A model generated the notes under the pieces. The model ran no database searches. It was given only the letters and a program-made list of their open reading frames with translations, and was not told the DNA's origin. Shown piece by piece: positions 26,478-47,849 of a stretch of 64,000 nucleotides of DNA. Made by a program: the position numbers and the translations under genes. The stretch is from Arctopsyche grandis (lineage: Eukaryota; Arthropoda; Insecta; Trichoptera; Hydropsychidae). Where the stretch lies: assembly GCF_051622035.1 (NCBI RefSeq), contig NC_135358.1, positions 23,626,501 through 23,690,500 of the forward strand, given 5' to 3'. Position 1 is the first letter of the stretch; the number at the start of each line of letters is the position of its first letter.

Positions 26478-28211
26478 GATTTTTACTAGAAAAATAACAA
26501 TTTGTATAAGTATGTAGACAACAGAGCACAGTGAACGATTGAACACAGTGAACAATGAGTAGGAGATTCGATAAACAATAAAGTATATATTTGATAAAAT
26601 TCTAAAAATAATCGTATACATGTTTGTTGATTTAATTTTAATATATAAAATATTATATTTAAACACCTTATATTAATGCTCTTAATAAATGATGGGTCAA
26701 ATTTCCAATGTTTACGTTTAAATTGTTTTATAATAGTTAATCAGAAAAATTCCACACAATTAAAAAATGTACAAAAACTGGCTTAATTTACGTACAAATC
26801 GAACGGTGCGTCATCTTTTTACTAACCTCTTCTTATTTTCTATCTAGTTTTCAGGGTCACCTCAACTATCGCGTAATTGTATGTAAACATAATGATGAAT
26901 TACTTTATTTTAGCACATTATTCCTACATAATATACATATACATATATTGCACCATATTTAAGTTTACTGAAATCAACCACTGAGGTGCATAATAAAGAG
27001 TATAAAAATCAAAACATAAAATCGCGTTTGTGTATATAACCGAACTGACATTGACCATTAGGGCTGACACATTCTTATAAATTTACTCGTCTTTACATAT
27101 TTATCGTTCACTCATCTTTCTTCGTTTCCTTTTGCATCCTATAAGATAACATTAGATTACAGTACATATGTATTTCCTTTGTTCATTTGCTATCAATTGG
27201 TCTGTCTATAAGTCTCACCCATTGCCACTAACTTTTTAGGTCGCTCAGCTATCTTTTACTTTAGTCATGCTTCTCACCCATAAATCTGTTATTTAAACTC
27301 TTCTATTCCAAGCATGTATCTCTTTATACTTCCCTGTGACTAGTATTAACATTCTAAAAAAACAAACATTGTTTTATCAATCAATCAAATAAATTCATTT
27401 AACTTTTCTGTATGTTTTTTCTCTTCTAAAGGCTTCATTTAATTTTAATTTGATTCTATTCAAATACTTTTGTTTCTATATGGTTTTGTGTATATTTCCA
27501 TTTAGTAAGTTCTTTGTCAAATGACATATTATTATTTGAATGTCTGAATAAAAAAATCCACTGAACTACTAGAAAAATCTCATATCACCAAAAATGATGG
27601 ATCATATTTTGGGACCAAGCCGCTTCTCTTAAGAATTATACATACAAAAAATGAATATGCATGTACAAATATATTATTGAGAAATCTGTTTATGCAGAAA
27701 GAGTGTTAAATTTCATACACATATGTAGCCAGCACGACATATCTATATAATAGAGTGGTAACCCTATAATTACAAAACATTGACTCTTATTATATTTGAC
27801 TGTGTACATGTTATACAAAATATATTTTGCAAGTTATGTACATATTTAATATATACTATGTACATACACATACAGTAAATATTATATACTTCAACTGTAG
27901 TAAATACATATGTATATAAAAAAATAGTCAAACATCACATATCATTACGATTCTGCATTATACATATATCATACAATTATGCATTATTATATGTATGTAC
28001 TCACATATTAGATACGAATGGAGTCGATACTTCCTCTCAAATCAACTAAACAGAACAAACTGACGTTTCACATGTTGTGTACAATTTACGCCTATCTCAT
28101 ATTCCCAAACATTTATTAGTGATTAAGTTTGAAATGTTTTTGGAAAGTACTACATGATTTCTATGTATAGGTATTTATACTATTCACAATGGTTAATAGT
28201 TATCAGTACAA
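26478..28211. other. P450 upstream region / spacer between divergent P450 groups
   Basis: AT-rich DNA between the minus-strand P450 at 24237-26477 and the plus-strand cluster. It contains many TACATATGTA-type palindromes around 26930 and 27820-28020. No gene was recognised. Confidence 0.6.
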
Positions 28212-28220
28212 ATTTATTAT

Positions 28221-28752
28221 GGTTGTGGCTATTTGCAGGTACTATATCTGCACATTATTGGCTATTTGCAGGTAATATATCTGCGAATTATTGGCTATTT
28301 GCAGATACTGTATCTGCGACAGGCGCAAAGCCTTCTGCGCATGCGCGTGAACTGTCACTGTCAGCGTGTTTAATGTTAAAATTTTGTTTTAAACCTCTTA
28401 AAATTTAGTTCGAACTCTTAAAGTGACGAAGAGTAAAAAATATAATCCAAATTAGTTAATATTATTAATTGTTAGAAAATTATGATCATATACAACGTAT
28501 AATACCTACATACAAGTGCAAGCCGCGAACTTAGCTATCACTAAATGATATAAATCTATTATAAGAACGTGCGAAATTTATTTGCCTCATGTATAATGAA
28601 CGATTTATTAAACAAGTCTAGCATACATTAAATGTAAGAAATTATAATCGGATTATAAGTTCACGCGTATGAGGGCTTTGCGCCTGTCGCAGATATAGTA
28701 CCTGCAAATAGCCAATAATTCGCAAATATAGTACCTGCAAATAGCCACAACC
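28221..28752. mobile_element. TIR element with internal repeats and 9-bp target duplication
   Basis: It begins GGTTGTGGCTATTTGCAGGT and ends with the exact complement. The flanks ATTTATTAT (28212-28220) and ATTTATTTT (28753-28761) match at 8 of 9 positions. The left arm carries three copies, and the right arm two, of a unit of about 32 bp centred on GGCTATTTGCAGGTA. A GCGCAAAG block lies inside both arms. No transposase was seen. Confidence 0.82.
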
Positions 28753-28837
28753 ATTTATTTTTGCACAACAAGTGCACTGTTAAAATCAAAATAAATTATA
28801 AGTGTTAAAAATTCTATTAAATGTATTTATGTACGAG

Positions 28838-29034
28838 CAGTGGTGTAGTGCTGAATAAAAAAGAACCAGGTCGGTGTTTAATTTTTAGGAGCACCCCTTA
28901 TTTTTACGAAATTTTAGTCAAAATATTTTTTAATTGTACTAGAAAAACAATGTTTGTATCAATCAAAGTGCCAGGGCGGCGACCTGGCTCAAAAAGAAGT
29001 ACCAGGGTGACGACCTGGCCTGACTACACCACTG
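28838..29034. mobile_element. hAT MITE with perfect 8-bp target duplication
   Basis: The ends are CAGTGGTGTAGT and ACTACACCACTG. It is flanked by TGTACGAG at 28830-28837 and 29035-29042, a perfect 8-bp duplication as made by hAT transposases. Inside, two CCAGG...GGCGACCTGG-type blocks are repeated. The open frame spanning it is fortuitous. Confidence 0.88.
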
Positions 29035-29042
29035 TGTACGAG

Positions 29043-30433
29043 TAAGTATGCTATGTACCCAAATTTTCGAGCAAATACATATGTATGCGGGTAAAAATTA
29101 CCTGAATACATATGTATTTTAAAATTAATAATTTCACGCTACCTGCGTGAACATGCAGAACTCAAAAATATTTCTTAGAATTTGAAGAACTTTTCCTTAT
29201 TCAATATAAGCTTTCAATTAGCATTGAAACCAGTCATACATACATCTAAATATTTGTATTTAAAAAGTAAATACTGTTCGTTCATTTTAGATAGATTTTA
29301 ACCATTTTTTCCTATTATGTTGTACACTAATGTTAAAATAAGATAATACTATAAATAAAAATATTCAGTTGATTAGTAATAATTATAATAGATACTTATA
29401 AGATGTATTGTGAACATAATTACAAACAATAAAAAGCATTGTAAAATCAAAAATCAAAATATTATTTTTAAATAAATTTGGGGTACAAAATATTTAAAAT
29501 GTTTCAATTGGTTACATCAGAATTAACATCGTATCATTTGTATCAAATAGTATTTACAAGTACATTAAAAAACAGGTTTAAATGATTTTCTGCATGACGC
29601 AGCATTGTGAAATTTTATATTATATTGTGTATTCCGAATACAAATTAGTGAATATGATTTTCGTTTTGTTAATCGATTGAAATGAGTGTTTTGTGATGAT
29701 CATATAAAAATAATATTATAGTAAATATTATATTTTAGTTACATCAAGTGTGGATTAATTTTTAAAAAATGTATTATACATACAATTATGTACATACATA
29801 CTGACATATATGTATGTTTTAGATTTAGAAAAGCTAACAAATTCAAGAAAGGAATAAAAAAGAGAGAAAATCAAATGAAAATATAAGAAAATGATAGAAC
29901 GTTTAAGTATATTTTAATTAATTTTCTTTTTTTTTCCTCTTCTGTAATATTGATGTCGGATGACATACGAGGCATATACTATTTTTATCATGAGCGATAT
30001 GTGTTAAGATATTATATAGTGTGTTTTAGCGGGAGTAGCGATCGTATGCGCAAAAAGCATACGATAACACTTTTTTTTGGTAAACAAGTAAAATTTGATC
30101 TATTTGTTCAAGCTATTTGTATAAGTTATTTTATTGATAAGTTCATATCTGCTATTCGAATAGGCAAATTGCAACAAAAAATATTTAACAGTTTTAATAA
30201 CACTGTGTTTATTTAACACTGGGCTTGAATTTTAGATTAAAGTCGTTCAATCAGCGATAGTTCGTTTAATGGCTTCGAAGCAGTGAGACGTGCTGCAGTT
30301 TTTGAATTGCCTTATACGACATTTGATAGCATTCGGTAAAATATTTCTATTTGGAATACCAGATGTGACTTAAAAGATGACGTTAGCTTTCAATGTGTAT
30401 GTATAATAATAAACATTATGTATTTTTAGATCA
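29043..30433. other. spacer upstream of the plus-strand P450 cluster
   Basis: AT-rich, with a copy of interspersed repeat family A (29320-29465). The region just upstream of 30434 should hold the promoter of the first P450 exon. I see no convincing TATA/initiator pair there. Confidence 0.55.
29320..29465 (+). repeat. interspersed repeat family A, copy 2
   Basis: Shares CCTATTATGTTGTA, AGATGTATTGTGAACATAA and the AATAAAAAGCAT plus A-rich tail with copies at 8690-8880 and 58345-58530. Confidence 0.75.
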
Positions 30434-31302
30434 ATGGCGTTCACGATAATATCGTTTTGGTGGGATACATTACTGTTGGTCGTCGTATTACTGACCAGTG
30501 TTTACTTTTTACTTAACAAAAACTATGGCCATTGGAAAAAGAAGGGCATACCAGGCCCACAGCCTACGTTTTTTGTTGGAAACATGCCCAAAACTCTAGC
30601 CGGAAAAATGTCAATGGGCGAAGAATTCACAGAGCTGTATTACGAAACAAAACATTCGCCTTATGCGGGAGTTTACATGATGCAAAGACCCACTTTTTTA
30701 ATCAACGATGTAGATCAAGACGATATTCACAAAAGACTTTGTTCACTTTTCCGATCGATCTTTCCAAGTGAATATAAAGTATGAGCCGCTTGCAGATCAT
30801 TTATTCAACGCGACTGGATCCCGTTGGAGGACCATGAGGGCTAAAATGACTCCGACTTTCACATCCAGCAGGATGAGGGAAATGTTCGACAGTGTCTTCA
30901 GATGCACTGTTGAGATGTTGAAGTATCTGGATGCTGGTGACACGGATCAGATATTGGAAGTCAAGGAACTTATGGCCAAGCTAAATACTGATGTCATAGC
31001 GACGTGTGCTTTTGGAATCGATTGTAACACGTTTGAAAATCCCGATGGTCGATTCAGACAGATGGGTAAAAGGTTTTTCAACTTGAAATGGTGGCAGAAA
31101 ATCATGCAAATGTTGGTCTTCTTCGCACCGAAGATTGTGTGGTATTCCAGAATCAGTATGTTGGGGAAAGAGATGAATGACTTCTTTTATGGAATTGTGA
31201 GAGATGCTATCAATTATAGGAAAGAAAATGGAGTTGTTCGAAAGGATTTTCTTCAAATTCTCATACAGATGATGAAAGAAGACGAAGAAATTGGCAAAAA
31301 AG
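30434..31302 (+). pseudogene. P450 first exon, frameshifted, without own exons 2-4
   Basis: Homologous to CYP6-type exon 1. The protein starts MAFTIISFWWDTLLL (anchor) with KKKGIPGPQPTFFVGN. The frame breaks after NDVDQ near 30718 and the correct continuation (IKTIFTKDFVHFSDRSF) is in another frame. The second part runs open through KYEPLADHLF, the C-helix WRTMR and VRKDFLQILIQ to a phase-1 donor at 31302 (AAAG then GTATCC). The break fits loss of 5 bp at a short ATCAA direct repeat. No I-helix, K-helix or heme exon lies between here and the next first exon at 31675. It is not functional as read. Confidence 0.85.
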
Positions 31303-31553
31303 GTATCCATATATATGTATATATTTTTTTAATATTACACATTTATAGAATTAGTATGTACCTATAGATATCGTTTAAATCAGTTTTAACCTTATTTATA
31401 TACACTTAACATAAAAAATACGCGTATTTAAATAAAATCGAATGTTGCAACACAAATTCACGCGATTACAGTGGGACAGTTCTTGTTTCACCATCAAAAA
31501 TCATACATACATATTCGGGACCTCAGAACTGCGATTCAGAACCACTGGGCGTG

Positions 31554-31586
31554 TATATCAAGGAAAACTGGCCATGCGCAGTCAGT
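31554..31586 (+). promoter_or_regulatory. candidate core promoter of P450 first exon D
   Basis: TATATCA at 31554 is followed 30 bp later by the arthropod-type initiator TCAGT (A at 31584). This lies 91 bp before the ATG at 31675. The words AGTCAGTGATG are shared with the equivalent position upstream of the first exon at 33883. Confidence 0.55.
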
Positions 31587-31674
31587 GATGTTTTGTCCGT
31601 CAAGGTATAGCTTGGCAACGTGAATTAACTAAATTAATAATCAAGTCACAAGTGTGTATGTTTACGGTGTAACA

Positions 31675-32554
31675 ATGGCATTTTTGCTCATCTCTTTCTG
31701 GTGGGACTTGCTTATTTGCGTCGATGTATTGCTGGTGTTAATCTTTGTTTACATTAAATACCAATATGGCTATTGGAAGAAGAAGGGTTTATCTGGTCCA
31801 GATCCTACATTTTTAGTTGGAAATGTTGGAAATGTAATTTCTGGAAAGCTTACGATGGGTGAAAGATTTTCGGAGCTATATTTTCAATTGAAGGATAAAC
31901 CATATGCTGGGGTTTTTATGATGCTGAGGCAAACCCTAATGGTGAACGATCTTGATCAGATTAAGACCATATTGGTTAAAGATTTTTCCCACTTTACTGA
32001 CCATTCCTTCGAGATGAACGAGAAGTATGAGCCGTTGGCTAATCATTTATTCAATTTGGGAGGCGAGAAGTGGAAAAATTTGAGAATTAAAATGACGCCG
32101 ACCTTCACTACTAGTAAAATGAAGATGATGTTCGACTCCATCAACTCCTGTGCCGATGTTATGAAGAATTATTTAGTAAATGACATTAAGGACGGAAACA
32201 TTGAAGATGTGAAGGAAATATTGTCCAAGTTCAGTACTGATGTTATAGGTTGTTGTGCTTTCGGCATAGAATGTGATAGTTTCAAGAATCCCAATTCCCA
32301 GTTTAGGAAGATGGGTAAGAGAGTGTTTCATATGCCGTTCCATAAAGCCGTCTTACAGATGTCATTATTCTTCTTTCCCAGTATGGTTACTAAAATAAAT
32401 TTTAGTATTTTGGGCAGTGATATGAATAACTTTTTTTATAATCTTGTGAAAGATACCATCGAATATAGAGAGAAAAATAACATAGTGAGAAATGATTTTC
32501 TGCAGTTGCTTATGGAATTAAGAAATGAAGAATCCGCAAACAATAGCGTCGATG
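31675..32554 (+). CDS. P450 first exon D: intact, orphan or alternative first exon
   Basis: An open CYP6-type first exon of 293 codons plus one base, ending at a consensus donor (GATG then GTAAGT) in phase 1. It encodes the membrane anchor (MAFLLISFWWDLLI), hinge KKKGLSGPDPTFLVGN, the C-helix WKNLR, and FSTDVIGCCAFGIECDSFKN through NIVRNDFLQLLMEL, i.e. helices A-H with substrate recognition sites 1-3. No homologous exon 2, 3 or 4 occurs before the next first exon (33883). The only same-strand exons 2-4 are at 42164-43221. Spliced to them it would give 1557 nt (518 residues) in frame. It could be an alternative first exon of that gene, or a recently truncated duplicate. Confidence 0.8.
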
Positions 32555-33063
32555 GTAAGTTTTTGGATAATATAATTTTTATATTAAATTTAAGAGCTAT
32601 GCCCTATTCAGCTGAATTTGTATCAATGCAATATTTAAGTTATTATAATTGTAATGTGGATGCTCTCCCAAATTCTCAGCCCACACGTATCATTTCTAGC
32701 ATATGTTTATTTGAAACACATGTCTTTACAAATCTCAACATTACTCTATTTTTGTCTACTAATGATAATTTTCAACCCCACATAGTTCGTTATTGCAAAA
32801 GCATGTTTCTTTAAATCTTTCCTATGGTCTTACGACCATTATTTATTGACTCCCCTAGCATACTTATTACTTAAACCCTGTAATCCGCACATATGTAAAG
32901 ACTTAAGTTTTATTACTTCTTTCTCCAGATTGTTATTAAAATACTTTGTTTCAAAATTAAACTCTAGTTATATTCAGATTTAGAGATATGTTTCACTGTT
33001 CTCTGATTGGTTGATTTTACCCAGCAGATTTTATATAGACAACCACCAGTCCTTTGTTAAGGC

Positions 33064-33190
33064 ACTTGCGATTTGACTGCCTAACTAGTAACTTGCGATT
33101 GAACTGCTTAATAAGTAACCAGTAACTTGTGATTTAAATACATAATTAATAACTTGTGATTGAACTAGAACCTTTTACTTTAACTACTAA
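33064..33190. repeat. degenerate tandem repeat with ACTTGYGATT units
   Basis: Four direct units of about 30 bp carry ACTTGCGATT or ACTTGTGATT followed by an A-rich segment. Confidence 0.65.
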
Positions 33191-33748
33191 TTTGTGTTAT
33201 AATTCGAGACTTGTATCATGAATCTCAAAACATGTCAGCATAGATTTCGTAAACATAAACTGCTTTGGGAAATATAATATAGGCACATCAAAATTGTGTT
33301 TATAATTTTTATAATCTCCTACTCGTCCCCGTAACATAATTTAGTCACGTGTAGAGTTTTGGGTTGAAAGAATTTTGGGATATGGAGTAGTATGTGTGAA
33401 CAATATCAGAAAAAATCACATTACAAGAAAGTCTACATTTTAAAATAAATCTAAATTTTTCAGACTTCATGATTTCATATTGTACAATATTTCGCATTGA
33501 AATTTTTTTAAATAGTATAAATTGTATGAATTACATACATACATATGTAGATATGTAGGTGCATTCACAATATTATATGTACATGTACATACATTTGTAT
33601 GTATGTATGTATATTTATTAAAAATGAAGTTAATTCGTACATACATATGTATGTACGATTCAAGTGATTTGATTTTTAGATCTTTGGTTTTCATGTGATG
33701 CGCATTTGCTGTTATTTAAGCAGCAATACAAAATGGGTACCTCTGGTC

Positions 33749-33793
33749 TATAAATACCACACAAACTGGAAATTGCAGTAACAGTTAGTCAGT
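33749..33793 (+). promoter_or_regulatory. candidate core promoter of P450 first exon E
   Basis: A consensus TATAAATA at 33749-33756 is followed by CAGTAACAGTTAGTCAGTG (about 33776-33794), with initiator-like A residues about 31-42 bp downstream. The ATG is at 33883. This is the clearest TATA box in the cluster and argues that exon E has its own transcription start. Confidence 0.6.
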
Positions 33794-33882
33794 GATGAGT
33801 TTTTGTACGCGGTGGTTGCCCATTTGGTTGCTGTATTTTGTACCATTCTGTAACCCTCTTTTATCAAATTAAAACTTAAAAA

Positions 33883-34759
33883 ATGATACTGATATCATTT
33901 TGGTGGGATTTGTTAATATGCTTGACGAGCATTGCGACATTTTTTTTATACACCTACGTAAAGCGTAGACATTCATATTGGGAAGAGAAAGGATTGAAAG
34001 GTCCCGCCCCCTCATTTTTAATTGGAAATTTGGGTGGTGTGTTTACTGGAAAGGTGGGTTTCCCATTGAGATTTACTGAATTATACTATGAGCTGAAGAG
34101 CGATCCATTTGTTGGAATATATATGATGCTGAGGCAGACGCTGATGGTAAATGATTTGGATCACATTAAGAATATATTAGTGAAGGACTTTGCCCACTTC
34201 ACAGATCATTCCTTTGGATTTGATGAGAAAACAGAACCACTATCAGCTCATCTGTTCTCATTGAAAGGAGAGAAGTGGAAAAAATTGAGGTATAAACTGA
34301 CGCCAACCTTTACCACAAGCAAAATTAAGTACATGTTTGAATCTGTCAACAAGTGCGCTGATGTCATGATGAATTTTTTGAAGGAAAATATAGTAGACGG
34401 TCAGGTCGAAGAGGTTAAAGAAATAATGGCAAAGTTGAATACTGATGTTATTGGGTGTTGTGCTTTTGGAATTGAATGTGACAGCTTCAAGAATCCTAAT
34501 TCTCAGTTCAGAAAAATGGGGAAGAAAATTTTCCAACTGTCATTTTTCGGTTCAGTAATGAGAATTTGCTCGTTCTTTTTCCCCAAGGCAATGGCCAAGA
34601 AGAAATTTAGTATTATAGGTAGCGATATTAATGATTTTTTCTACAATCTGGTGAAAGACACGATAGAACACAGAGAGAATAATAACATTGTAAGAAACGA
34701 CTTTTTGCAGTTACTAATACAATTAAAGAACGAGGGCTCTATTGCTGACGAAAATCTGG
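33883..34759 (+). CDS. P450 first exon E: intact, orphan or alternative first exon
   Basis: Open for 292 codons plus one base from MILISFWWDLLIC to a phase-1 donor (CTGG then GTATGC) at 34759. It has the anchor, the hinge EKGLKGPAPSFLIGN, the C-helix WKKLR, and LNTDVIGCCAFGIECDSFKN through NIVRNDFLQLLIQLKN. It is clearly paralogous to exon D at 31675 but differs at many positions. As with D, no exons 2-4 follow before the next first exon; joined to 42164-43221 the total would be 1554 nt (517 residues) in frame. Candidate alternative first exon with its own TATA promoter; a truncated duplicate is the rival reading. Confidence 0.8.
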
Positions 34760-34860
34760 GTATGCCGAAAATTAAAATTGTATATTTTTTTATTTTATAA
34801 TAATATTTTGACCAATAACATGTGTCAACTGAAATATATCAGAATCATTAATAGTCGATT

Positions 34861-35150
34861 AAAGGTCCATTTATATTATCCAGCACTGCACGGAAAAGAC
34901 TATTTCTATTCATACTGTTCAGCACCGTCCGTTTTCGCCACGTTCATACTTGTTTTGACAAAATCAGCTTACATTTACATTACAGAGCGTGACGATATGG
35001 TGCAATATTGCTAGGGTCGTATCGTCGGGTCAATGTTGTCACAATATGACGTTTTTGAAAATATTCACATGCACATGCTAACACTTTCATTAGTGCGGAT
35101 GCACTCACCACTATGAAGTTACATCATGTGTGAATATTTTCAAGAAAACC
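34861..35150. repeat. interspersed repeat family B, copy 1
   Basis: Homologous to 63261-63505: shared TTTATATTATCCAGCA, TGCACGGAAA, AAATCAGCTTA and GTGCGGATGCACT. Internal short inverted words TGAAAATATTCACATG and its complement occur. No coding signal. Confidence 0.75.
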
Positions 35151-35225
35151 CGTGTAGTTGTCGACTTGAGCTGTTGTGGTATAAACGAACCTTTTGTCCA
35201 AACATTTCTACTGTTTGTGAAACCA

Positions 35226-35754
35226 TTAAGAGGGCTGGACAGCAGCGCCTTGTCCATACAAACGTACTATACTTCTCCCTACCTCAATTATGGCACTAGA
35301 GAAATTATTTTTTAATATGCTATAGATATCCACCATTGGGGTGCATCTATCGTTTTATTTTTTTGATTAATTATTTTTTATATGAGGTAGGAGCCACCAA
35401 ACATCTATAAAATCGCCTCTTTTTTACACCTACGAAATGAGTCTAGCGTGGTTATTTAACGGTCGATTTAAAAAAAAATACGCCAATAGATGCACAGAAA
35501 ATATCTTTCTCATACCGATGATGAAATTTTTTTTAAAATTGGTCCAGTTTTGGAGGAGAAAATAGTAGAATACGAAACCTTGATTTTGTCAATTTAAAAC
35601 ACGTTTTATCTGGTCGAAGCGCAATTGTCGCATTCACTCAATATATATATTGATATATATTGTCGCATTCACTCAATTTATACATACACTCAATATATAT
35701 ATCGAAGAAAGGAACGGTAACAAAATTAAGGTTTCGGGTGTACAGCCCTCTTAA
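35226..35754. mobile_element. TTAA-flanked TIR element
   Basis: TTAA at 35226-35229 and 35751-35754 flank a 521-bp element with ends GAGGGCTGGACA and TGTACAGCCCTC. The TTAA target and short ends fit a piggyBac- or Kolobok-type non-autonomous element. There is no transposase; the superfamily is not decided. Confidence 0.72.
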
Positions 35755-36086
35755 GGCATTCATACATATTTATATTAAAACGATTATTTACGTATGTATG
35801 TATGTATGTACATTCGATTGTTGCTTATCTATTGTTAATGAGCATCGGTTTTTATATGCCTCAAGCAAAAGATTTAACCGTGTTTAAACTTTCTTTATAA
35901 TACATACTTCATACGAAATTTATATTGGGTATATCTAATTATGTAAATATGTAGGTTTTTATCTAATCGAGACAGTTAATATAATAATTAATATCAGAAT
36001 CAGTCGCTAAGGAGACGTTGACTTTGAGTGTTGTTTGCTTTGAATAAATATTGTACATATGTACATGGATACAACCTCAAATTGAA

Positions 36087-36545
36087 TATCATCGAACAAA
36101 ATGCGTTTCTTATCATTTCGTTTTATTGGGATTTGATAATATACATCGGTATTGCACTAATGCTGCTTTTTACAAAGATCAAATATGAATATGGTTACTG
36201 GAAGAGGAATGGTATGCCTGGATTAAAGCCCACATTCCTAGTTGGTTATCTGGGTGAACAAATGACTGGGAATAAGGACTTTGGATCTGTGTTTACTGAT
36301 TTATACATACAATTAAAAGGAAAACCGTATGCTGGAGTTTACTCTTTACTGGAGTTTACTGAGCTAAGGCCAACATTAATAATGAATGATCTTGATACCA
36401 TTAGAAGCTTGCTCCTAAAAAAATTACTGATTGAAATAAATGAGAAACATGAACCTCTAGGAGGTCATCTTTTCAATTTAAGAGGAGAAAAGTGAAGAAT
36501 CTAAGAAACAAGTTGACGCCTACGTTCACTTCTAGTAAAATGAAG
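36087..36545 (+). pseudogene. P450 first exon F, decayed and truncated
   Basis: Recognisable CYP6 first exon: AFLIISFYWDLIIYI, then YGYWKRNGMPGLKPTFLVG and LRPTLIMNDLDTIRSLLL. The start codon is out of frame because the expected ATGGCG reads ATGCG. The region of the KDFxHFTDH block is replaced by a short deletion. The C-helix codon TGG has lost a base, giving GEK then a stop; the continuation KNLRNKLTPTFTSSKMKL is in another frame. Homology ends near 36545 and the rest of exon 1 is missing. Confidence 0.88.
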
Positions 36546-36835
36546 CTTGCATCAACGCTATCTTGCGTACGCTCACGGTAAATGAACAAGTGTTTCTAAC
36601 GCAATTACCCGCCGAGTTAGTACGATTAGATAAAAAAAAATATTGATATAGAAAAACAACTCTTTATAAATGTGGTGAAATAAAAAACTGGCCAAATAAA
36701 CGCAAAATAGCACGGAGAAAAAATCCGTAAAAAAAAAATTTGACTTTTAAAATTCGCTAGACAATTAATTATAAGTCATTTAAAACAATAAAAATCACAA
36801 TGAATAGAAAAAACATCTGAATATTGATTCCAATA

Positions 36836-37080
36836 CTCACTTTGAGCACATCGATACTAGATTTTGAGTTAAAGACCACAAAGGTCAAAAAACTATAAAA
36901 ATCGCGCGGTTTTTTCAACGCTCTTATCTCGTAAACGATTAACTAACCAACAAAAATAATTATCATATTCGAATTTAGTGGGTCTTAGAAAAGATTGGTT
37001 AGTCTCCGCCCTGGTAACTCAAAAAAGTGATTTTTTGTCGCTCAGTGTTATAAAGTTGGTGGAATAGAATATATCAATTA
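36836..37080. repeat. interspersed repeat family C, copy 1
   Basis: Homologous in inverted orientation to 48620-48775: shared blocks are ACTGAGC(G/A)ACAAAAAA, ACTAACCAATCTTT and CCCACTAAATTCGAA (as read on the minus strand here). Confidence 0.7.
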
Positions 37081-37259
37081 ATAATTGACTAAAAAAGTTT
37101 TATCACAAATATACTCAATTATCTAATGACAAATTGAATAACTGAAATTTTAAAATCAGATATTTATATACATATGTATGTATACTCTATGTATTAGCCG
37201 TATCGTAATGAGTCTATTGCATGTAGACGTATACATATGTCCAAACAAATGTGTGAATG

Positions 37260-37838
37260 CAGTGATGTGCTGCTAAAATTCTATCAACCGGCTTGCACCT
37301 TGGCAAACACCCCCCCCCCATTTTTATACAAATTATTTTTTTCACAAAAAAAAATTTATCATACATTACAAAATTATTTGTTTACATAAATTCATTCCAA
37401 ATGGTGTTTTGATTTTTTTTCGAACCTTTGGCCGTGACGGGTCTAATTCGTCTATCATCTGCTGGGTGATTGATGTGACTTCTGAGCTATGATTTAACGA
37501 ATGGTGTGGAATCCCATGAAGTACTCAGTGGCAAACCTATCAAATTAATGTTTATTAAGTCTATATGTGTCTAATACCTAAATTTGCCCTTTTTTCTGAA
37601 CAAATAGTATTCATGATCGAAAATCCTCGCTTAGCCTCCGCAGAGCTTATTCGCAACGGTCGCAAGTTTATACTTTATCCATATCGGATCAAGTATTGTG
37701 TTCGTGTGAAAATTTGATGAAAAATATGTATATTTAAAAAAAAAAATCCGTATTTTAAGAACCAAAGCTCTCCGAACCAAAATTATTTTAGCAACCGGCT
37801 CGACAGAGCCGGTGCGAACTCATAGCAGCACATCACTG
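37260..37838. mobile_element. hAT element, non-autonomous
   Basis: The ends are CAGTGATGTGCTGCTA and TAGCAGCACATCACTG. The flanking 8-mers TGTGAATG (37252-37259) and TGTGTATG (37839-37846) match at 7 of 8. The interior, read on the minus strand, has weak similarity to transposase coding sequence but is full of stops. Size 579 bp. Confidence 0.82.
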
Positions 37839-38355
37839 TGTGTATGTACAATGAACATATACATGTAGGTACTGATTGTTGTTTCGGTCGAGTTTGGGCT
37901 GTGTTTTTATATGTACACGATGAACGCATGATTGTATCGTGTTTTTTTTTTGTTTAGTTATTACAAGGTTAACTCCACATAAGTACACCAAATTGTTTTA
38001 TAAACTAACCATTAAATAGAAATTAAGTCAAGTAGAATTTATTGACAGTATTTAATGACTTGACTTATTATATTATGATAGATTCAAAGATAATATCACA
38101 ATAGCAATTTTACGATTATTATCTTGAAACAGATGATTAACGATACTATCTGCAGATTAAAAATCAGGTATGGTTAATCTTAAAAGTGATAAAAATTTTG
38201 AGTAAAATGTAAACATTTCATTACTTTTTGACATGTAATACAATTTTTATACCTGATATAATTCAATTTTTCATCGCATTAGTTTCTACATATATACATA
38301 CCAGTATTTAAGTACTAACTACATGCTAATTATGTGCTACTTATTCAACACTAAA

Positions 38356-39160
38356 TACTACATCAGATTTGGCTGGTGGATTTGGGTTTTATCACAGACA
38401 TCATGGAAAAAATGAACTATTTAAACTTGGGAGCTACAAGGAAAAGACAAACATGTAGCTAAAATGATGAGTTCTGTAAACTCGTTTCTGTCTCTCGTGT
38501 ATTTCCCAAATATGTAGGAAATGGCAGGTGACACTGAATTCAACGTGTCATTATTGGTTAAACACCTTCGAGTGCTTCAAGAACAGTTTGAAAAGAGATT
38601 TCAGCAGTTTACTATAATCGAGCCAATGGTCTCCTTTTTTATTGTTAACCTCTTCTTATTTTATTTACAAGGCTCTTCTATGTATATATCACTTCGCTCA
38701 TTGGTCTGACAACATAACTTACATTCTTCCGATCGTTTCGAAACTTTGCTATTTTGCGTGGTTTGGTCAATGATAGATATTTAAATCAATTCCGCCAGTA
38801 CGATGGTGAATAATAATCGTAATAGACACGTTTAAAAATGCAAAAATTGTCAGTAGCCTTATATATTTTCTTTTTCGCCACCCTCTCGTTTTGTCAGATT
38901 TTAATTGTTTAAACGCCTATAACTTTTTCTTTTTCACACAATATCTTATAGTTATCAATCCTTTTATTTGCAAAATAAATATAATAGTCAATTGCAGAGC
39001 TTGTTCAAGTAATGGCAGAACTGGAGCTAGAGATTTTGAACCTTCAGAATGATATTATGCTAAAATCCTTTATATCAGATAAGGACTTCTGGAGTGCAGT
39101 GGACAGGAAAACGTTTCCATTCATAAAAAAGCGGCATACAAGATAAAATCATTTTTCGGT
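38356..39160 (+). pseudogene. degraded hAT (ZBED/GTF2IRD2-like) transposase, interrupted
   Basis: Reading across frames gives a domain typical of hAT transposases related to ZBED5/GTF2IRD2: DIMEKMNYLNL, then MAGDTEFNVSLLVKHLRVLQEQFEKRF (from 38521). After an interruption at about 38632-38998 it continues LVQVMAELELEILNLQNDIML, then SDKDFWSAVDRK. Several frameshifts and stops occur. The interruption contains a copy of repeat family D. It is a dead insertion between first exons F and G of the P450 cluster. Confidence 0.75.
38690..38830. repeat. interspersed repeat family D, divergent copy
   Basis: Shares CCGATCGTTT, ACTTTGC(C/T)AT and TACGATGGTGAA with copies at 41333-41515, 43911-44073 and 45372-45452. 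Confidence 0.6.
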
Positions 39161-39205
39161 TCGACATACCTTTGTGTATCATTATATATATCATTACATA
39201 TATAT

Positions 39206-39472
39206 CGAGTAAACGGACTACTAGTCATATGTGAACCAGTCACAGGACAACCGGTCGCTCTAGATCGGTCACACGTGATCACCCATCACACTAAAACTGG
39301 TCACGAGAAAACTGGTCACACCCTAAAACTGGTCATTAGAAAACTGGTCACACCCTAAAATCGGTCACGAGAAAACTGGTTGACCGATTTTAGGGTGTGA
39401 CCAGTTTTAGTGTGACGGGTGATCACGTGTGACCGGTTGTCCTGTGACCGGTTCAAATTTGACTAGTAATCA
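39206..39472. mobile_element. foldback element built from ACTGGTCAC units
   Basis: Arms beginning ACTAGTCA...GAACC(A/G)GTCACAGGACAACCGG are inverted about a centre near 39380. The left arm carries extra tandem units of ACTGGTCACACCCTAAAA. No coding capacity. Confidence 0.8.
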
Positions 39473-40050
39473 CCGAACCATATATCGATACATTTGAGCT
39501 AGTAAACAAACGGTCAACAATTAAAATGAATATTCATTTTTATATACTAAGTATATACATGGCAATTGACAATTGCAATTGACACTTTGACATACATGGC
39601 AATTGACACTTTGACAATTGGCTTGTAATTTGATATATTTATGAAATTCTATTATGCTGTAATGCATAATGAAATGATTTTTTGAAGCCGAAAAACATAC
39701 GAGTGATTTTCTGTTTTTATAGAATGAACATTAGGATTAAACCAATATTTATTTAGTATTTACTAACCAAATTAATAAATTAGAAACCAAATTCATTACT
39801 GATCAATTGTTATTAATAAATGACCAAAAATTTGATTTCCTTTTTTTATGTACACGATTATTTGTTATGTACATATGAATTCGGCTACAAATATATAAAT
39901 ACTTAAATTCAATATGAAAAATTGAAATATTGTAAATAAAATATTGCCAAGCTTTAGCACTTCTGTATCAGCATGACATCGAATAAAAGTATGCACACAT
40001 ATATGTATGTAGATATATACATATGTACATATGTATGTAAGTAGGTGTTA

Positions 40051-40088
40051 TATTATAACTCAGTGGACACTCGCTCTCTGTCCAGTTC
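40051..40088 (+). promoter_or_regulatory. candidate core promoter of P450 gene G
   Basis: TATTATAA at 40051-40058 lies about 33 bp before a TCCAGTTC initiator-like word (A at 40084); the ATG is at 40151. Moderate support only. Confidence 0.45.
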
Positions 40089-40150
40089 GACCGTCAACTG
40101 AATTATCATTCATAGTTCAAAATTAAATTACCATCTGTTTTTCACGAGTC

Positions 40151-43100
40151 ATGGCATTTTTGCTAACATCAATATCATGTGTCACGTTATTGATTTGTGC
40201 CTGCTATTATTGGATAATGAGAAGATATTCCTACTGGAAGAATAAGGGAATAGCATCCCCGAAACCTAGTATACCATTCGGAAACATACGCAACACTGTA
40301 CTAGGAGCAAAACAAATCGGAGTCGACTTCTCAGATATATATAATAACAACAAAACAGAGGATTACGTTGGCGTTTACATGGTGCTCAAACCGACGTTAG
40401 TCATAAATAATTTAGATTTAATTAAAACAGCTCTGACGAAGGACTTTGTTCACTTTTCTGATCACGGTTTGCCGTTCGACGAAGAAGCTGAACCGATTTC
40501 GGGACACTTATTCAACGTAGGAGGTGCAAAATGGAAGAATCTGAGGGCGAAACTAACTCCAACTTTCACTTCGAGCAGGATGAGATCTATGTTTGATGTC
40601 GTGCACGATTGTGCAGCTGAAGTTGCGAAGCATCTGGATCAATGTACAGAAGACGATTTAGATGTGAAAGAAATACTTGCCACATTCGGAAATGATGTGA
40701 TAGCTAGTTGTGCCTTCGGGGTTGAATTAAATACGTTTAAGAATCCCGATGATAAGTTCAGGAAGATGGGAAGGAGAATCTTCAAGCAATCTCCTTTGGA
40801 GGAGATTGTCAATGTGTTCGATTTTTTTCTTCCGAATGTGATCACTAAGTTCAAACCTATGATACTGGGCAGGGAAGTTGAGGAATTCTTTTACAGTATC
40901 GTGGAACAAACTGTGAACTTCAGGGAGAAGAATGGAATAGTTCGCAATGATTTTATGCAGTTGTTAATCCAGCTGAAAAATACTGGATCCATTTCAGAAG
41001 AAGGCGTCGGTATTTGCATACATACATATCTACCTATATTATATTCGGTAAAATAATAATGATAGTAATAGCTGCGAATAATTTAAACTGAAAGTCTATC
41101 AAAGTTTTTCGTGTAAAATATAATTATTTTTTTGATAAATTTTTGTCTATTACATGCATCTGTGCTCTTTGGTATACGGATTATTGCGCAAATTGCGATC
41201 ACGTGCACGACAATCGTGCCACAAAAATCGCGAATACAGAATAATTGGCACTTAAGTTCGATTGATGAAGTTTTTGGTGCCAGATGTTCTGTGATCGAGG
41301 TTTTTGGTGACGTGGGCGAGATCCCTTTTTTATTATTACAAACTTCCTTTATTATTATTATTATTACAAACCTCCTTTACGTTTTTATTATTACAAACCT
41401 CCTTTACGTTTCACATTAAGATGACTTTTTAATATCTCTTATCTCTTATCCGATCGTTTTCATACTTTGCCATATTGCTCATTTTGGTCATCAATCATTA
41501 AAATTATGATCTCGGCTTAAACTAATGTAATTAAATATATTACTAAGATGTTTGGACCGCTTTTATATCATCATATACGTACATATATCATCACATGCGG
41601 CCCAAACCTCTTAGTAATATATTTAATTACATTAGTTTAAGCCGGGATCATAATTTTGATTGAAACCCCAATCATTGAAAACTCTTTAATTGAAATATTA
41701 ATCATGAAATCCCACATATTTGTACATTTGTTGTTGAAATATTGTTTAAATTGCCTTTTTATTTTATTTATATTTTAGTACATTATTTTATTACTACAGT
41801 TTTATTAAATACATTTATTTTTTTACTACAGTTTTTTTTATTGGAGAATAATCACTGAACCGAATGATTTATGTACGTATGTATGTTCTATACGAATTTA
41901 TGCACATGAATCAACCAAATACGTATTGTATATTAGGAATATATGGAAACGCTATTTTAAAAATGCAGCATTTGGTGCTGAACTCGGTCATATTGTGTCA
42001 AATTATTTTTTGTTTTGTATGATTATGTACATTATTTTTAGCTCGTAATATGTAGATATCTGAATCTCATTTTAAATCATTGAGGATTTCATAGACATAT
42101 ATAGATAATATTCATAAGTTAGATTACAATAAAATGACTTAAAATTAATTATTTTCTTTTCAGACAAGTCAGAAGCGCCTCCTGATGATGGCACCAGGCT
42201 GACTATGATGCAATTGGCCGCTCAGGTCTTTGTATTCTTTATTGCTGGTTTTGAAACGTCTTCCACGACGGCTAGTTTCGCTCTATACGAGTTAGCTTTG
42301 AATCCAGATGTCCAGAAAACATTGACTGATGAAATTGACGACATATTAGCTAAACACGATGGAAAAATAACGTATGACTCTCTGGGTGAAATGACTTACT
42401 TGACCAAAGTCATTGAAGGTGTGTTTATTCTTCCTACAGCATAAAATTGCATTTTTTACCTTTACCTGTCATTCAGTAAGAATTAATATTTGATATAACT
42501 ATTATGTACTTACATGTAAATTTATACCGAATCTATCAATTGAACTTTGCTTGTAAAACGCTTATCATGTTCATAGTATACATTTTGTTTAAATTAATTA
42601 TTTATTCTCTATCTTATTTTAACTTCAATCAGTAAATAATATTTAAATTTGGCTCAATTCACAGAAACTTTAAGAAAGTATCCTCCACTGCCAGTATTGT
42701 TCAGAATATGCACTAAGGATTACATATTGCCAGATACGAATATTAAAATTGAAAAGGACACTCCTGTGATGATACCTGTGTATGGAATACAGAGAGATCC
42801 TGATATTTATCCCAATCCAAACAAATTCGATCCAGAGAGGTTTACTCCCGAGAACAAAGCAGCCAGACATCACTTTGCGTATCTGCCATTTGGCGAAGGG
42901 CCCCGTATTTGTATAGGTATTACTTCAAATGAGATGTAATTTAACCATTAGAATGTATTTTTAAAATAGCATGATTGGTTCATAACTTTCAATATATTGC
43001 ATAGCAAGTACTAAATTAAGTCCATACTAAAATTAAAATTTAAAATTTTAGGTAGTCGCTTTGGTATGATGCAGACCAAACTGGGATTAGCTACATTTTT

Positions 43101-43221
43101 GTCTAAATATGAAGTATCCGTCTGCGATAAAACACTCATACCAATGGAATATGATAAAAGGTCATTCGTTTTGACGAGCAATGGTGGTTTGTGGTTGAAG
43201 CTCAAGCGTAGGTCTAAATAA
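40151..43221 (+). CDS. cytochrome P450, CYP6-like (gene G), intact; possible shared 3' exons
   Basis: Exons 40151-41009, 42164-42418, 42665-42916, 43052-43221; the sum is 1536 nt, i.e. 511 residues. All introns are phase 1. Exon 1 has the anchor MAFLLTSISCVTLLICA, the hinge KNKGIASPKPSIPFGN and the C-helix WKNLR. Exon 2 has the I-helix AGFETSSTT, exon 3 the K-helix ETLR, PERF and FGEGPRICIG, and exon 4 SRFGMMQTKLGLA. The stop is followed by an AT-rich 3' UTR. This is the only complete P450 on the plus strand. Four other first exons (30434, 31675, 33883, 36087) lie upstream in the same orientation and end, where complete, in the same phase, so exons 2-4 could be common to several transcripts. 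Expected role: microsomal monooxygenase; substrate unknown. Its first intron (1154 bp) contains repeat family D and a foldback. Confidence 0.93.
41333..41515 (+). repeat. interspersed repeat family D copy, inside P450 G intron 1
   Basis: Contains ACAAACCTCCTTTACGTTTC (its left part doubled), ATATCTCTTATC, CCGATCGTTTTCATACTTTG and CATATTGCTCATTTTG, shared with 43911-44073. An (ATT)n run precedes it. Confidence 0.75.
41503..41659. mobile_element. palindromic foldback MITE in P450 G intron 1
   Basis: Arms of about 60 bp (AAAATTATGATC, CGGCTTAAACTAATGTAATT, AAATATATTACTAAGA) are inverted around an AT-rich centre near 41580. Its left end abuts repeat family D. Confidence 0.8.
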
Positions 43222-43616
43222 ATTATAATAAGATTTATAAAATATTTGCGGATCAAAATCTTATTCAAATTAATATGTAGTACATAAATTGTAACTCATT
43301 TACATGATTTTATTAAACTAACCCGTATTATATTATAAGCTTATTTTACATTATATGTTTTTTTAACAATTATATTTGAATTTATAATAAAAATGTTTAA
43401 ATAATACATACCTTTATTTCAATTATTTTTAATATAATGTTTTTAGAGTAATGTAATTTATTTTAAAGTTCTAATTAAAGATATTCGAAATTTTATCTGG
43501 AAACGCTTAAATTAAAATACATATGTATGTAGATACATCATGATAATCAATATCAATTCAATTTAGTTCTCGAATGTCTATTAAAAAATACTAAAATCGT
43601 ATTATACATATCTAAT

Positions 43617-44151
43617 CGGTCTCCGTGACGGGCCGGAATGTGAAATGCCGGAAAACGCAAATATCGGAAGGCAAATATCGAAAATCGAAAGATCTTACGT
43701 CGAAAGATCAAAAAAAGGGTGCATCGTAAACGGTACATATTCACTTAATTTGCGCGAGCAGGATACAACAGGAACAAGAGGAACAGGCTTTTCCTCCCGT
43801 ATTCTGCGCGCGCACATTAATACGGGAGCAAAAGCCTGTTCCTCTTGTTCCTGTTGTATCCTGCTCGCGCAAATCAAGTGAGTATGTACCGTTTACCATG
43901 CACTCTTTTTACATACCTCCTTTACATTTCACATAGTTTTCGTGTAAGTGGTAACTTTTTATATCTCTTATCCGATCGTTTTCATACTTTGCCATATTGC
44001 TCATTTTGATCATCAATATAAGTTAAGGTATCATCCGCCATTACGATGGTGAAAAAATATCGTATTATTTATTGATCTTTCGATTTTCAATCTTTGGCTT
44101 CCGATATTTGCGTTTTCCGGCATTTCACATTCCGGCCCGTGAGGTAGACCC
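43617..44151. mobile_element. palindromic foldback element, copy 2, with nested insertion
   Basis: Ends CGGTCTCCGTGACGGGCC and GGCCCGTGAGGTAGACCC. The same arms and centre as copy 1. The right arm is split at about 43910/44074 by a 163-bp copy of repeat family D, after which the arm resumes with GATCTTTCGATTTTC. Confidence 0.88.
43911..44073 (+). repeat. interspersed repeat family D, inserted in foldback copy 2
   Basis: Starts ACATACCTCCTTTACATTTC and ends near TATTATTTATT. It interrupts the right arm of the foldback element, giving relative ages: the foldback is older than this family D copy. Confidence 0.78.
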
Positions 44152-44229
44152 ATATACTATATATAAAAACAATGTCTCGGTAAATATGTATATAAATATG
44201 TGACGGACAACGGGCGCAGTATGGTGAAT

Positions 44230-44420
44230 TTTTTTTTTCTTCAGTTTTTTCGTTTTTTTCATTTATTTAATTTATTTCATTTTTTTCAGTTTTTTAATTT
44301 TTTTCAGTTTTTTAATTTTTTTCAGTTTTTAATTTTTTTTGTTTTTAATTTTTTCAGTTTTTTCATTTTTTCAGTTTTTTTCATTTTTTCAGTTTTTTCA
44401 TTTTTATCATATTTTTCATT
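44230..44420. repeat. TTTTTCAG-type low-complexity tract
   Basis: Repeated TTTTTTCAGTTTTTT/CATTTTTTCAG units. Open frames here (Phe-rich) are low-complexity artefacts. Confidence 0.85.
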
Positions 44421-44429
44421 TTTGTGCTA

Positions 44430-44603
44430 CGGGCGCCGGAGGCGTCCGGAGCACTGGGGGCGAAGGCCCAGGGGCGCCTGAGGTGCCGGGGGCGTCAGGG
44501 GGGGAAGGCCCCGGGGTGCCGGAGTCACCGGGGGCGAAGGCATCGGGCGTCGGCGCCGCTGGGGGCGAAGGCGTCGAAGGTGCCGGAGGCATCGGGGACG
44601 CTG
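44430..44603. repeat. GC-rich minisatellite
   Basis: Degenerate units around GGGGGCGAAGGC and GGTGCCGG in an otherwise AT-rich window. Many G-runs of 3-5 on the plus strand. All frames are open by composition, so coding is not inferred. Confidence 0.85.
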
Positions 44604-44745
44604 GGTTCGTATTCACTTCGTAATTTCTAATTCATGCATCAATTTCTTTCCGAAACCAGTCAATTCAATATCTTTAACTTTATTTTTAGTCGAGTTTCAA
44701 TTTCTTTTCGAAACCACCCGTTGAAATCAACGGGCCCAACACTAG

Positions 44746-44961
44746 TATAATATATAATTTCGAAAGAGACTTTGTATGTAAATAAATATGTAATGTTGGT
44801 TGGTAATATCGAAAACGAATCGAAGCTTCGATGACGATTCGATATTTTTTTTTTTCGATTCAAATAAATTTAATAAAAAAAGAAATGAATATTTGCTATT
44901 ACATAGATTCGCCATGTTTAAGCTGTTTATATTACAAATACTGAGCGAAGCCGGGTAAAAC
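44746..44961 (+). repeat. interspersed repeat family E, uninterrupted copy
   Basis: From ATAATTTCGAAAGAGACTTT to the tail ACTGAGCGAAGCCGGGTA. It matches 59030-59640, which carries a foldback insertion; this copy is the empty site. Confidence 0.8.
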
Positions 44962-45371
44962 AACTATTATTAAATATATGTAAGTTGTTGTCAACTTTTA
45001 GTCTACATATGTAGTAATTGTGTAATTTTAGACACTAACATTCAGCTAATAACAGTTAAATGGTTAAAATTCCTCATCCTAATCTGTTAATTATGTTTTG
45101 TAGTGTAGATATTTTGGTATATTATACAAAACGATCCAAATAGATAAATTGAAGATAATAAGGAAATTTGGCATATTTGACTTTAAAGTTTACACAGTAA
45201 TTTCTAGGCAAGATGAAAACTGTCAATTTTTATTCTCCGAAAAATTAATTTTAAATTCATTTAAAGTTTTTTTCCACATTTACGTCTGATGGTTACTATG
45301 GTTTAAGTAAAAAATATGTAGATTAAATGATTCTTAATAACATTAAAGATCCATTAAATGAAGTTGCATAA

Positions 45372-45452
45372 ATAAAAAAAGATCGGATAAGAGATATAAA
45401 AAATCACTACTTACACGAAAACCATGTGAAACGTAAAGGAGGTATGTAAAAA
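45372..45452 (-). repeat. interspersed repeat family D, inverted copy
   Basis: Reads GATCGGATAAGAGATATAAA through CGTAAAGGAGGTATGTAA, the complement of the family D start. Confidence 0.75.
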
Positions 45453-45582
45453 TAAATTGTAATTGAGTAAATAATAAATATAAAAGATGCATTGAAATTA
45501 TTTATTATGAAAATGTAACATACATACATGAATAATATTGAATAATCTATTAGGAGTTTGGTGTGAAATAATTTATTTCAAT

Positions 45583-46938
45583 TCATTTTTTTCTTAATGT
45601 GACAAAATCATCTGTAAGTGGATTAAAAGTATTGACTCGCATACAATTATAATTTTGCTCGATGACTTCAATCTTGCTTTCAAATAATTTAATATCATCC
45701 TTCTTCATATTTATAATGAATTTTCGACTCTCAATAATAAGCACACCATCATTACTCATCACATTCATAAGACATGAGTCAACTTTGTCGACGAAATTTT
45801 GAGAAACATACAACACGTCAAATCTTCCACGAAATTCTTCTTTACATGTAAAGTTATTCAATGCTGATGGCGAATGAAAAGATACAGTAACACCTTCTAT
45901 ATTTATCGAAGGCGAATTATTTAAATCGTATTCTGAAACTAATCCACCATCAATCTCTTCGCTCATTTTTGTATCCAGTTGAGCCGTAGTAACCAATCCT
46001 AAATTGTGATTTTCGATTTTAAAGATGTCCGGATCAAACGATTTCCTCGATTGCACTTCATACATCATCCTCATAATATTCCTTTCACTAATATCTGTAG
46101 ATCTTTTAACATGAACTCTATTAGACACTTGCATCATATATTTATCGATGCAGTCCAAACCGAAAGCAATGTACGGACCGGTAATAATATCACCGATATA
46201 GCCCCGGTGGCAAAACTCATCTCCACACTTTAACACTCCAGCTGCTAGTGTATAATTTGGTCGACACACTTCTACTTCCAACCAAGTAAAAGCCACTCCA
46301 GTGTTTCGAAAATGCTTAAACTCTTGCAACGACACAACGGCACCTCCAATATCTTTAAACCTCATGTTATAATCCCAATCAAACACACCAAACTTGGCAT
46401 CATATCTAGTTCCGAGAGCAGCTCTTATCCTTTTGTCCCACAATTCACAAATGTTGAACTGATTAGTGTTACCCTTTCTCCAAAACTGCAACAACATTTC
46501 AATGTAGTCCCGTTCCCGATATTTAATTCCTTCAAAAGACACATTAGGAAGCATTTTAGCCATGTAATCCAAATCGGTTATCATTTTGATAATTTCTTTC
46601 GATTTAAAAATCATATATTTAGATGTGGATTGACGTATTAGTGTATTTCCATATATTTCGAGGTACAACCGGGTTTTTTCCAGAAGACCTAACTGTCGAG
46701 GGTTCTCTAGTGCGATCGATAGAAGCATCAGTTGCCGAGCAATCAATTCAAGACAACCCTCGATAATGTGAAAGTTTATTCTTGTACATTTGTGGCGATA
46801 CATCTGTGCAATCGTTTTCAACACATGTCTTCCATCACAACCTCCGATCAATATGATGTTGAGTTCACTTTTATCTATGTCAACATACTTTGTATACTCT
46901 TCCTGCAGATCCAAAGCGGTGGTAAGTCCCCAATACAT
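45583..46938 (-). CDS. DNAAF3: dynein axonemal assembly factor 3, intronless
   Basis: A single 451-residue open frame. It begins MYWGLTTALDLQEEY, corresponding to the conserved WGLSPALDLQ start of DNAAF3. It then shows LIGGCDGRHVLKTIA, NFHIIEGCLELIARQLMLLSIALENP, KYRERDYIEMLLQFW, RYDAKFGVFDWDYNMR, QEFKHFRNTGVAF, and RGYIGDIITGPYIAFGLDC. These follow the human DNAAF3/Chlamydomonas PF22 order throughout (methyltransferase-like N-terminal half, then the DNAAF3 C-terminal domain). Role: cytoplasmic preassembly of inner and outer dynein arms for motile axonemes, in insects sperm tails and chordotonal neurons. The length is somewhat below the human 541 residues; the C-terminus (FNPLTDDFVTLRKK) appears natural. 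No introns are seen, so it may be ancestrally compact or a retrocopy that became the functional gene. Confidence 0.93.
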   Translation of the reverse strand: MYWGLTTALDLQEEYTKYVDIDKSELNIILIGGCDGRHVLKTIAQMYRHKCTRINFHIIEGCLELIARQLMLLSIALENPRQLGLLEKTRLYLEIYGNTLIRQSTSKYMIFKSKEIIKMITDLDYMAKMLPNVSFEGIKYRERDYIEMLLQFWRKGNTNQFNICELWDKRIRAALGTRYDAKFGVFDWDYNMRFKDIGGAVVSLQEFKHFRNTGVAFTWLEVEVCRPNYTLAAGVLKCGDEFCHRGYIGDIITGPYIAFGLDCIDKYMMQVSNRVHVKRSTDISERNIMRMMYEVQSRKSFDPDIFKIENHNLGLVTTAQLDTKMSEEIDGGLVSEYDLNNSPSINIEGVTVSFHSPSALNNFTCKEEFRGRFDVLYVSQNFVDKVDSCLMNVMSNDGVLIIESRKFIINMKKDDIKLFESKIEVIEQNYNCMRVNTFNPLTDDFVTLRKK

Positions 46939-47171
46939 GTTGAAAATGTTTAAATTAAAGCAATTGCAATATGCGAGACGTCTGTCAACTAGGTCAAAGT
47001 AAACAATTGGTTGCTAAGATAATATCTAATTCATGTATCATATTATTTATTGATCGCAGACAATCATACATTTTTTGTACTTATTTACAGAATACATAAT
47101 TACGAAATCTACATATTTTGCAAAAATGTAATACAATATACCTGATTGAGGTTTAGATTTTGTATTATGAT
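46911..47171 (-). repeat. DNAAF3 5' flank, original copy of a 260-bp direct repeat
   Basis: Spans the first ~9 codons of DNAAF3 and about 230 bp upstream. It matches 47567-47829 with small differences (for example a short insertion after TACTTAT). Shared words include GCGAGACGTCTGTCAACTAGG and CCTGATTGAGGTTTAGATTT. Confidence 0.88.
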
Positions 47172-47177
47172 TTCGGA

Positions 47178-47829: not shown

Positions 47830-47849
47830 TTTTACAAATATGTATTACA

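Follow-up and report, generated by a model that had tools for sequence, protein, structure and literature searches.

The 64,000-base stretch of contig NC_135358.1 analysed here (the window; 32% G+C, zero N) carries a P450 locus in which, on the plus strand, five first exons (A, D, E, F, and G) lie in one orientation ahead of a single set of exons 2-4 (Table 1). This arrangement had been proposed in an original prediction, and it was confirmed by the reading frames, the donors and acceptors, and a six-frame motif scan of the whole window. The scan returned four occurrences of the heme motif FxxGxRxCxG and seven of the C-helix motif W...R.K[LM].[PA][ATS]F, and the three C-helix motifs in excess of the heme-motif count are located in A, D, and E. 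As predicted for four of the first exons, the donors of A, D, E, and G (after 31302, 32554, 34759, and 41009) are all in phase 1, and D and E are indeed open over about 292 codons up to their donors. All three intact first exons (D, E, and G) join in frame to exons 2-4, each with a single terminal stop, yielding proteins of 518, 517, and 511 residues, respectively; the in-frame joining of D and E to 42164-43221, with these two lengths, had been foreseen.

The layout resembles that of UGT1A, in that tandem first exons of the same orientation and equal phase precede one 3' set, while the encoded proteins belong to the P450 superfamily: Pfam PF00067 matches exon 1 of D (E-value 7e-24), E (9e-28), and G (9e-23) as well as the 3' part of A (1e-18), and the heme motif lies at 42889-42918. 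At a threshold of E 0.001, PF00067 was the sole Pfam match in D, E, and G, in which no UDP-glycosyltransferase domain was found; the 5' part of A and the whole of F had no Pfam match at this threshold, and both align to D by tblastn. A is present with its phase-1 donor but carries a frameshift, flanked by reading frames of 94 and 196 codons that contain no stop. F is recognisable as a relic whose frame breaks and whose recognisable sequence stops near 36548, with no 3' half, and which starts at 36101 rather than at 36087 as first reported. We regard A as a recent casualty and F as an old one. Because all three P450 genes outside the array, on the minus strand, have complete exon sets, the lone first exons are exceptional in the window; these three genes have the same intron positions and phase-1 boundaries as the array.

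Table 1. Positions of the P450 exons, upstream motifs, and other features in the window
Feature	Position	Strand	Description
First exon A	30434..31302	+	open apart from one frameshift near 30715; donor after 31302 in phase 1
First exon D	31675..32554	+	intact; 293 codons plus one base; donor GATG/GTAAGT
First exon E	33883..34759	+	intact; 292 codons plus one base; donor CTGG/GTATGC
First exon F	36101..36548	+	decayed, truncated relic
First exon G	40151..41009	+	intact; nearest to exons 2-4; donor GTCG/GTATTT
Exon 2	42164..42418	+	I helix AGFETS; sole plus-strand copy found
Exon 3	42665..42916	+	ETLR, PERF, heme FGEGPRICIG up to the splice
Exon 4	43052..43221	+	C-terminus and stop
TCAGT of D	31582..31586	+	-93 from ATG; initiator-like; TATATCAA 28 bases upstream
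TCAGT of E	33789..33793	+	-94 from ATG; initiator-like; inside the 11-mer AGTCAGTGATG
TCAGT of F	36000..36004	+	-101 from ATG
TCAGT of G	40060..40064	+	-91 from ATG
P450 gene (22 kb)	about 22.1-20.3 kb	-	own exons 1-4
P450 gene (26 kb)	about 26477-24240 (26.5-24.2 kb)	-	own exons 1-4; one in-frame TGA
P450 gene (50 kb)	about 50.2-47.9 kb	-	own exons 1-4
MITE-like element copies	43614-43910, 12171-12470, 51008-51301, 59240-59535, 54796-55003

Where the protein is divided between the variable and the shared exons bears on what could be exchanged. CYP3A4 is the best solved relative both for exon 1 of E and for exons 2-4, and along its chain 5vcd_A the former aligns at residues 3-261 and the latter at 269-458, which would place the exon 1/exon 2 joint between what we take to be the H and I helices. 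Because of this position, exon 1 presumably holds the membrane anchor, the B-C region, and the F-G region, with substrate recognition sites (SRS) 1-3. The shared exons, which we take to contain the I helix, ExxR, PERF, and the heme loop, presumably carry SRS4-6, so exon 1 holds just part of the substrate pocket. D and E differ most in three places, namely the membrane anchor (one bin with 13 of 15 residues changed), aligned residues 211-240, about the F-G region (19 of 30), and the last six residues (all six). The CYP6 label used for the locus is our assumption from sequence features; by rule, members of this family have more than about 40% identity to named CYP6 proteins, and no named CYP6 protein was among the matches in the collections searched; the CYP3A matches suggest assignment to clan CYP3, and the presumed CYP6 likeness points to an insect origin.

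We then asked whether the first exons evolve as coding sequence, using a purpose-written codon model (GY94 type, F3x4, ignoring stop avoidance) on seven first exons, with F excluded. D and E diverge by 0.285 at first, 0.168 at second, and 0.588 at third codon positions. A ratio of nonsynonymous to synonymous change (dN/dS, omega) near 1 for these two exons had been named beforehand as the outcome speaking against their use. Instead, their common omega was 0.061, and fixing it at 1 cost 88 log units (twice the log-likelihood difference, 2 delta lnL, of 176.5), with identical optima reached from three other starting points; fitted jointly, A, D, and E gave an omega of 0.056 (2 delta lnL of 186.4 against 1). 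Codons differ at 93 of the 184 residues that are identical between D and E, and in one 28-residue block the protein is the same in both despite 13 codon changes. Thus, purifying selection acts on D and E taken together. Synonymous divergence (dS) among the first exons is saturated, and the single-branch tests against omega 1 therefore have low power: their 2 delta lnL was 10.3 for A and 12.8 for G, and 0.4, 39.4, and 31.6 for the minus-strand genes near 26, 22, and 50 kb. An omega estimate of 20 on the branch of the gene near 26 kb was dropped as an artefact of the same saturation.

The open frames speak to the age of any neutral phase. If the D branch alone were neutral, its 0.10 substitutions per site would be expected to bring 3.4 stop gains, with a probability of none of 0.033; the corresponding values are 0.175, 6.5, and 0.0015 for E and 0.27, 9.9, and 5e-5 for A, all with indels uncounted. 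Any neutral phase of D and E was probably shorter than 0.25 substitutions per site, and neither exon is old debris.

To search for lost copies, we made profiles of exons 2, 3, and 4 from the four complete sets and ran them over the A-D, D-E, E-F, and F-G intervals, the G intron, and the flanks at 27000-30433 and 43222-47990. No remnant was detected between the first exons, the best profile match in the four intervals having an E-value of 1.7; in the remaining stretches, controls aside, the best was 0.44 (G intron, minus strand), and tblastn of the four complete exon 2-4 proteins against the four intervals gave at best 0.21, over 18 residues in F-G. Complete exons served as positive controls and scored 4e-33 or better, and an exon 4 split by an interval edge was recovered as pieces of 3e-20 and 4e-5. 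The reach of the search was measured by randomly decaying each of the four sets and searching with the other three only, which detected 160 of 160 at 0.1 substitutions per site, 156 of 160 at 0.25, 11 of 160 at 0.5, and 1 of 160 at 0.75. An earlier control that decayed G with G among its own queries was set aside as too kind (30 of 30 at both 0.1 and 0.25, 16 of 30 at 0.5, 1 of 30 at 0.75, and 0 of 30 at 1.0 and 1.5) and gave the same limit. Since any neutral phase of D and E probably fell short of 0.25 substitutions per site, exons 2-4 of their own did not simply rot once function was lost; those of A, D, and E were either lost by separate, clean, and very recent deletions or were never present in these duplicates.

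Upstream of the first exons, local alignment of 28 pairs singled out D-E alone (6 of 200 shuffles), and as this was not significant once the pairs were counted, we turned to positional motif tests. TCAGT, the arthropod initiator core, occurs in four of the five upstream regions at ATG distances that fall within 11 bases, which none of 3000 shuffles reproduced, and was not found at -91 to -101 in the three minus-strand P450 genes. Clustering in four of five regions by some pentamer with two or more G or C was seen in 1 of 300 shuffles. The window contains exactly two copies of the 11-mer AGTCAGTGATG, one at -95 relative to the ATG of D and the other at -96 relative to that of E; as a bare word it is not rare (two matches with at most one mismatch in 25 of 100 shuffles), but a run of this length at equal ATG distance in D and E arose in 5 of 5000. 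Before E, TATAAATA is located 40 bases ahead of TCAGT, farther than usual. These motifs would fit a duplication unit made of promoter plus first exon, G included. Upstream of A (30249-30433, read by eye), TCAGCGATAG stands at about -183 and a possible 5' untranslated region intron lies just before the ATG; were this intron spliced, the motif would sit at about the D/E distance. A bacterial promoter scan was set aside as not relevant to this organism.

An unrooted tree of exon 1 unites D, E, and F with an ultrafast bootstrap of 84 and A, D, E, and F with one of 69, and places G on the side of the other P450 genes. In the simplest history, the solo first exon arose once and then multiplied by tandem duplication, although this history is not a firm one because these supports are modest. 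Distances from a donor to the next motif are 280 (A-D), 1235 (D-E), and 1241 bases (E-F), and the near-equal latter two hint at a repeat unit without exons 2-4. Palindromic, insert-like elements at 39216-39471 (between F and G) and 41497-41660 (within the G intron) may explain some of the extra length of these stretches. Alignments of the sequence after the donors (15 pairs) reached 0 or 1 of 60 shuffles for A with D, A with the 26 kb gene, D with E, and E with the 50 kb gene, and were left unused because these four pairs all lie in A+T-rich or TATG-repeat sequence.

On this evidence, the locus probably works in the manner of UGT1A: variable first exons, each under a promoter of its own, would be spliced to a catalytic module common to all. 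D, E, and G would each have a core promoter and start a transcript that runs to the common 3' end; the donor of the first exon would be joined to the exon 2 acceptor (42163/42164), and any first exons in between would leave with the intron. Each product would have its own membrane anchor, B-C region, and F-G region, with the I helix, ExxR, and heme loop in common, the long splices and the functional difference of the products being what we infer from the sequence. Anatomy, selection, absence of remnants, and motif position all fit the shared catalytic module first suggested; the proposal of five recognition modules was an overstatement, since just D, E, and G are intact today. On balance, and with some hesitation, we favour a combinatorial locus for a detoxification P450, in which one catalytic half, from the I helix to the heme loop, would serve at least three separately promoted recognition halves through alternative promoters and long-range splicing, a UGT1A-type design that would have evolved independently in a P450 and been kept long enough for synonymous saturation between the first exons.

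Several results weigh against this interpretation. Two of the five first exons (A and F) are damaged, and the proposed splices would need introns of 7.4 kb (E) and 9.6 kb (D), against an intron 1 that measures about 0.1 to 1.2 kb in G and in the three minus-strand P450 genes. The sequence before D and E, which had been called promoter-like, does have TCAGT at -93/-94 and the common 11-mer; yet clustering in four of five regions by some pentamer, mostly A+T-rich, occurred in 26 of 300 shuffles, and A is without TCAGT at the corresponding position. Runs at equal ATG distance also arose between D and the unrelated 50 kb gene (9 bases; 2 of 300 shuffles) and between F and the 26 kb gene (8 bases; 30 of 300; 28 pairs tried). 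The D-E and E-F intervals have no significant residual homology to one another (28 of 300 shuffles, 5 of 57 rotations), and their near-equal spacing is therefore given little weight. With dS saturated, single-branch 2 delta lnL against omega 1 was weak for D (3.5) and E (2.5), and for E alone a branch model with omega 1 fits no worse than the one-ratio model; what speaks against a neutral E is the joint test together with its open frame.

The main competing account, which we consider unlikely, holds that the array is recent debris: A, D, and E would until recently have been complete genes, from which three separate clean deletions removed exons 2-4, with too little time so far for D and E to decay. 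P450 clusters undergo birth-and-death turnover; in this one, A and F are broken already, and an in-frame TGA interrupts the otherwise complete gene at 26.5-24.2 kb. Moreover, after neutral decay of under about 0.05 substitutions per site, with expected stops of 1.7 in D and 1.8 in E, there would be a fair chance of both still being open. However, three separate deletions would have to follow quickly upon one another, each taking all of exons 2-4 and sparing the next promoter and first exon. Just 280 bases lie between the donor of A and the motif of D, and exon 2-4 remnants were not found between the first exons.

If the solo first exons were instead expressed without being spliced to 42164, truncated products, trans-splicing to another P450 transcript, or a regulatory RNA would result, an outcome that strikes us as improbable. 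The amino acid constraint and the promoter-like motifs suggest use but do not specify which 3' end, the D frame remains open for about 86 codons past its donor, and a precedent is described in a report on human CYP3A43, whose exon 1 is joined to CYP3A4 or CYP3A5 exons (PMC1890557). Yet donors and phase-1 ends are retained in A, D, E, and G, a P450 lacking the I helix and heme loop would have no obvious activity, and cis-splicing to the acceptor of a downstream P450 in the same orientation would be simpler. We give very little credence to an assembly artefact in which tandem exons 2-4 were collapsed or dropped. Tandem P450 arrays are known to mislead annotation software (PMC2678163), and the single lesions in A and in the 26 kb gene could be errors; but the window has no N, at least three intervals would have to contain the same error, and the D-E match, in a listing of the best 60 self-matches for 29-46 kb, reaches no more than 70% identity and is confined to the coding part.

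First exons arrayed before shared 3' exons have a precedent in UGT1A (PMC9209448). Vertebrate UGT1A has several coding first exons with their own promoters and one 3' set, as we infer here for promoters and splices, and in both cases the first exons outnumber the functional enzymes. UGT1A differs in enzyme family and fold, this locus not being a UGT, and here three first exons only are intact and the heme site lies in the shared part. A further precedent for the architecture comes from odorant and gustatory receptor genes of beetles (PMC8956072), which encode receptors, not enzymes. Mixing of P450 exons is known from hybrid transcripts of human CYP3A43 with CYP3A4 or CYP3A5, in which a first exon is joined at canonical sites to the exons of another P450 gene, much as proposed here (PMC1890557, PMC5793191). 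Unlike human CYP3A, this locus has upstream units without 3' exons and an exon 1 that makes up more than half of the protein. The human CYP3A genes each come with a complete set of exons and have a short first exon. Among insect P450 genes, Drosophila Cyp4d1 has alternative coding first exons, two N-terminal exons in number, and this locus differs from it in being an array of about 290-codon modules with SRS1-3.

Among the titles and abstract openings listed, from a collection with subscription journals mostly outside, none concerned a P450 array of long coding first exons with shared 3' exons. Insect P450s are usually thought to diversify by whole-gene duplication. If the combinatorial reading is true, duplication of a first exon with a shared catalytic module could widen substrate range at half the cost, and the catalytic half, being part of all products, would be protected. 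Gene counts for P450 clusters would then need checking, as would the filing of lone exons as debris, and the locus would constitute a natural domain-swap experiment that sets anchor and F-G region apart from the catalytic core.

None of the 7 pattern matches in viral_contigs was a relative, and the one matching locus in genome_contigs (L001, a rumen Clostridia metagenome-assembled genome, 41% over about 56 residues) was treated as chance. Rfam and ARAGORN scans gave 0 matches, and an 826-codon open frame at 17330-19810 (plus strand) had no match in Pfam, NCBIfam, or solved structures. The TGA in the minus-strand 26 kb gene is a single in-frame codon at 25809-25811, in exon 1 of an otherwise complete gene; it reflects either an error of sequencing, a polymorphism, or recent loss of function (a null). 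At 45583-47013 on the minus strand, an uninterrupted 476-residue frame contains DUF4470 and DUF4471 (Pfam) and presumably encodes a protein of the dynein axonemal assembly factor 3 type. Finally, an element about 200-300 bases long and in part palindromic, resembling a miniature inverted-repeat transposable element (MITE), recurs with 90-93% identity to the copy at 43614 in the comparisons listed.

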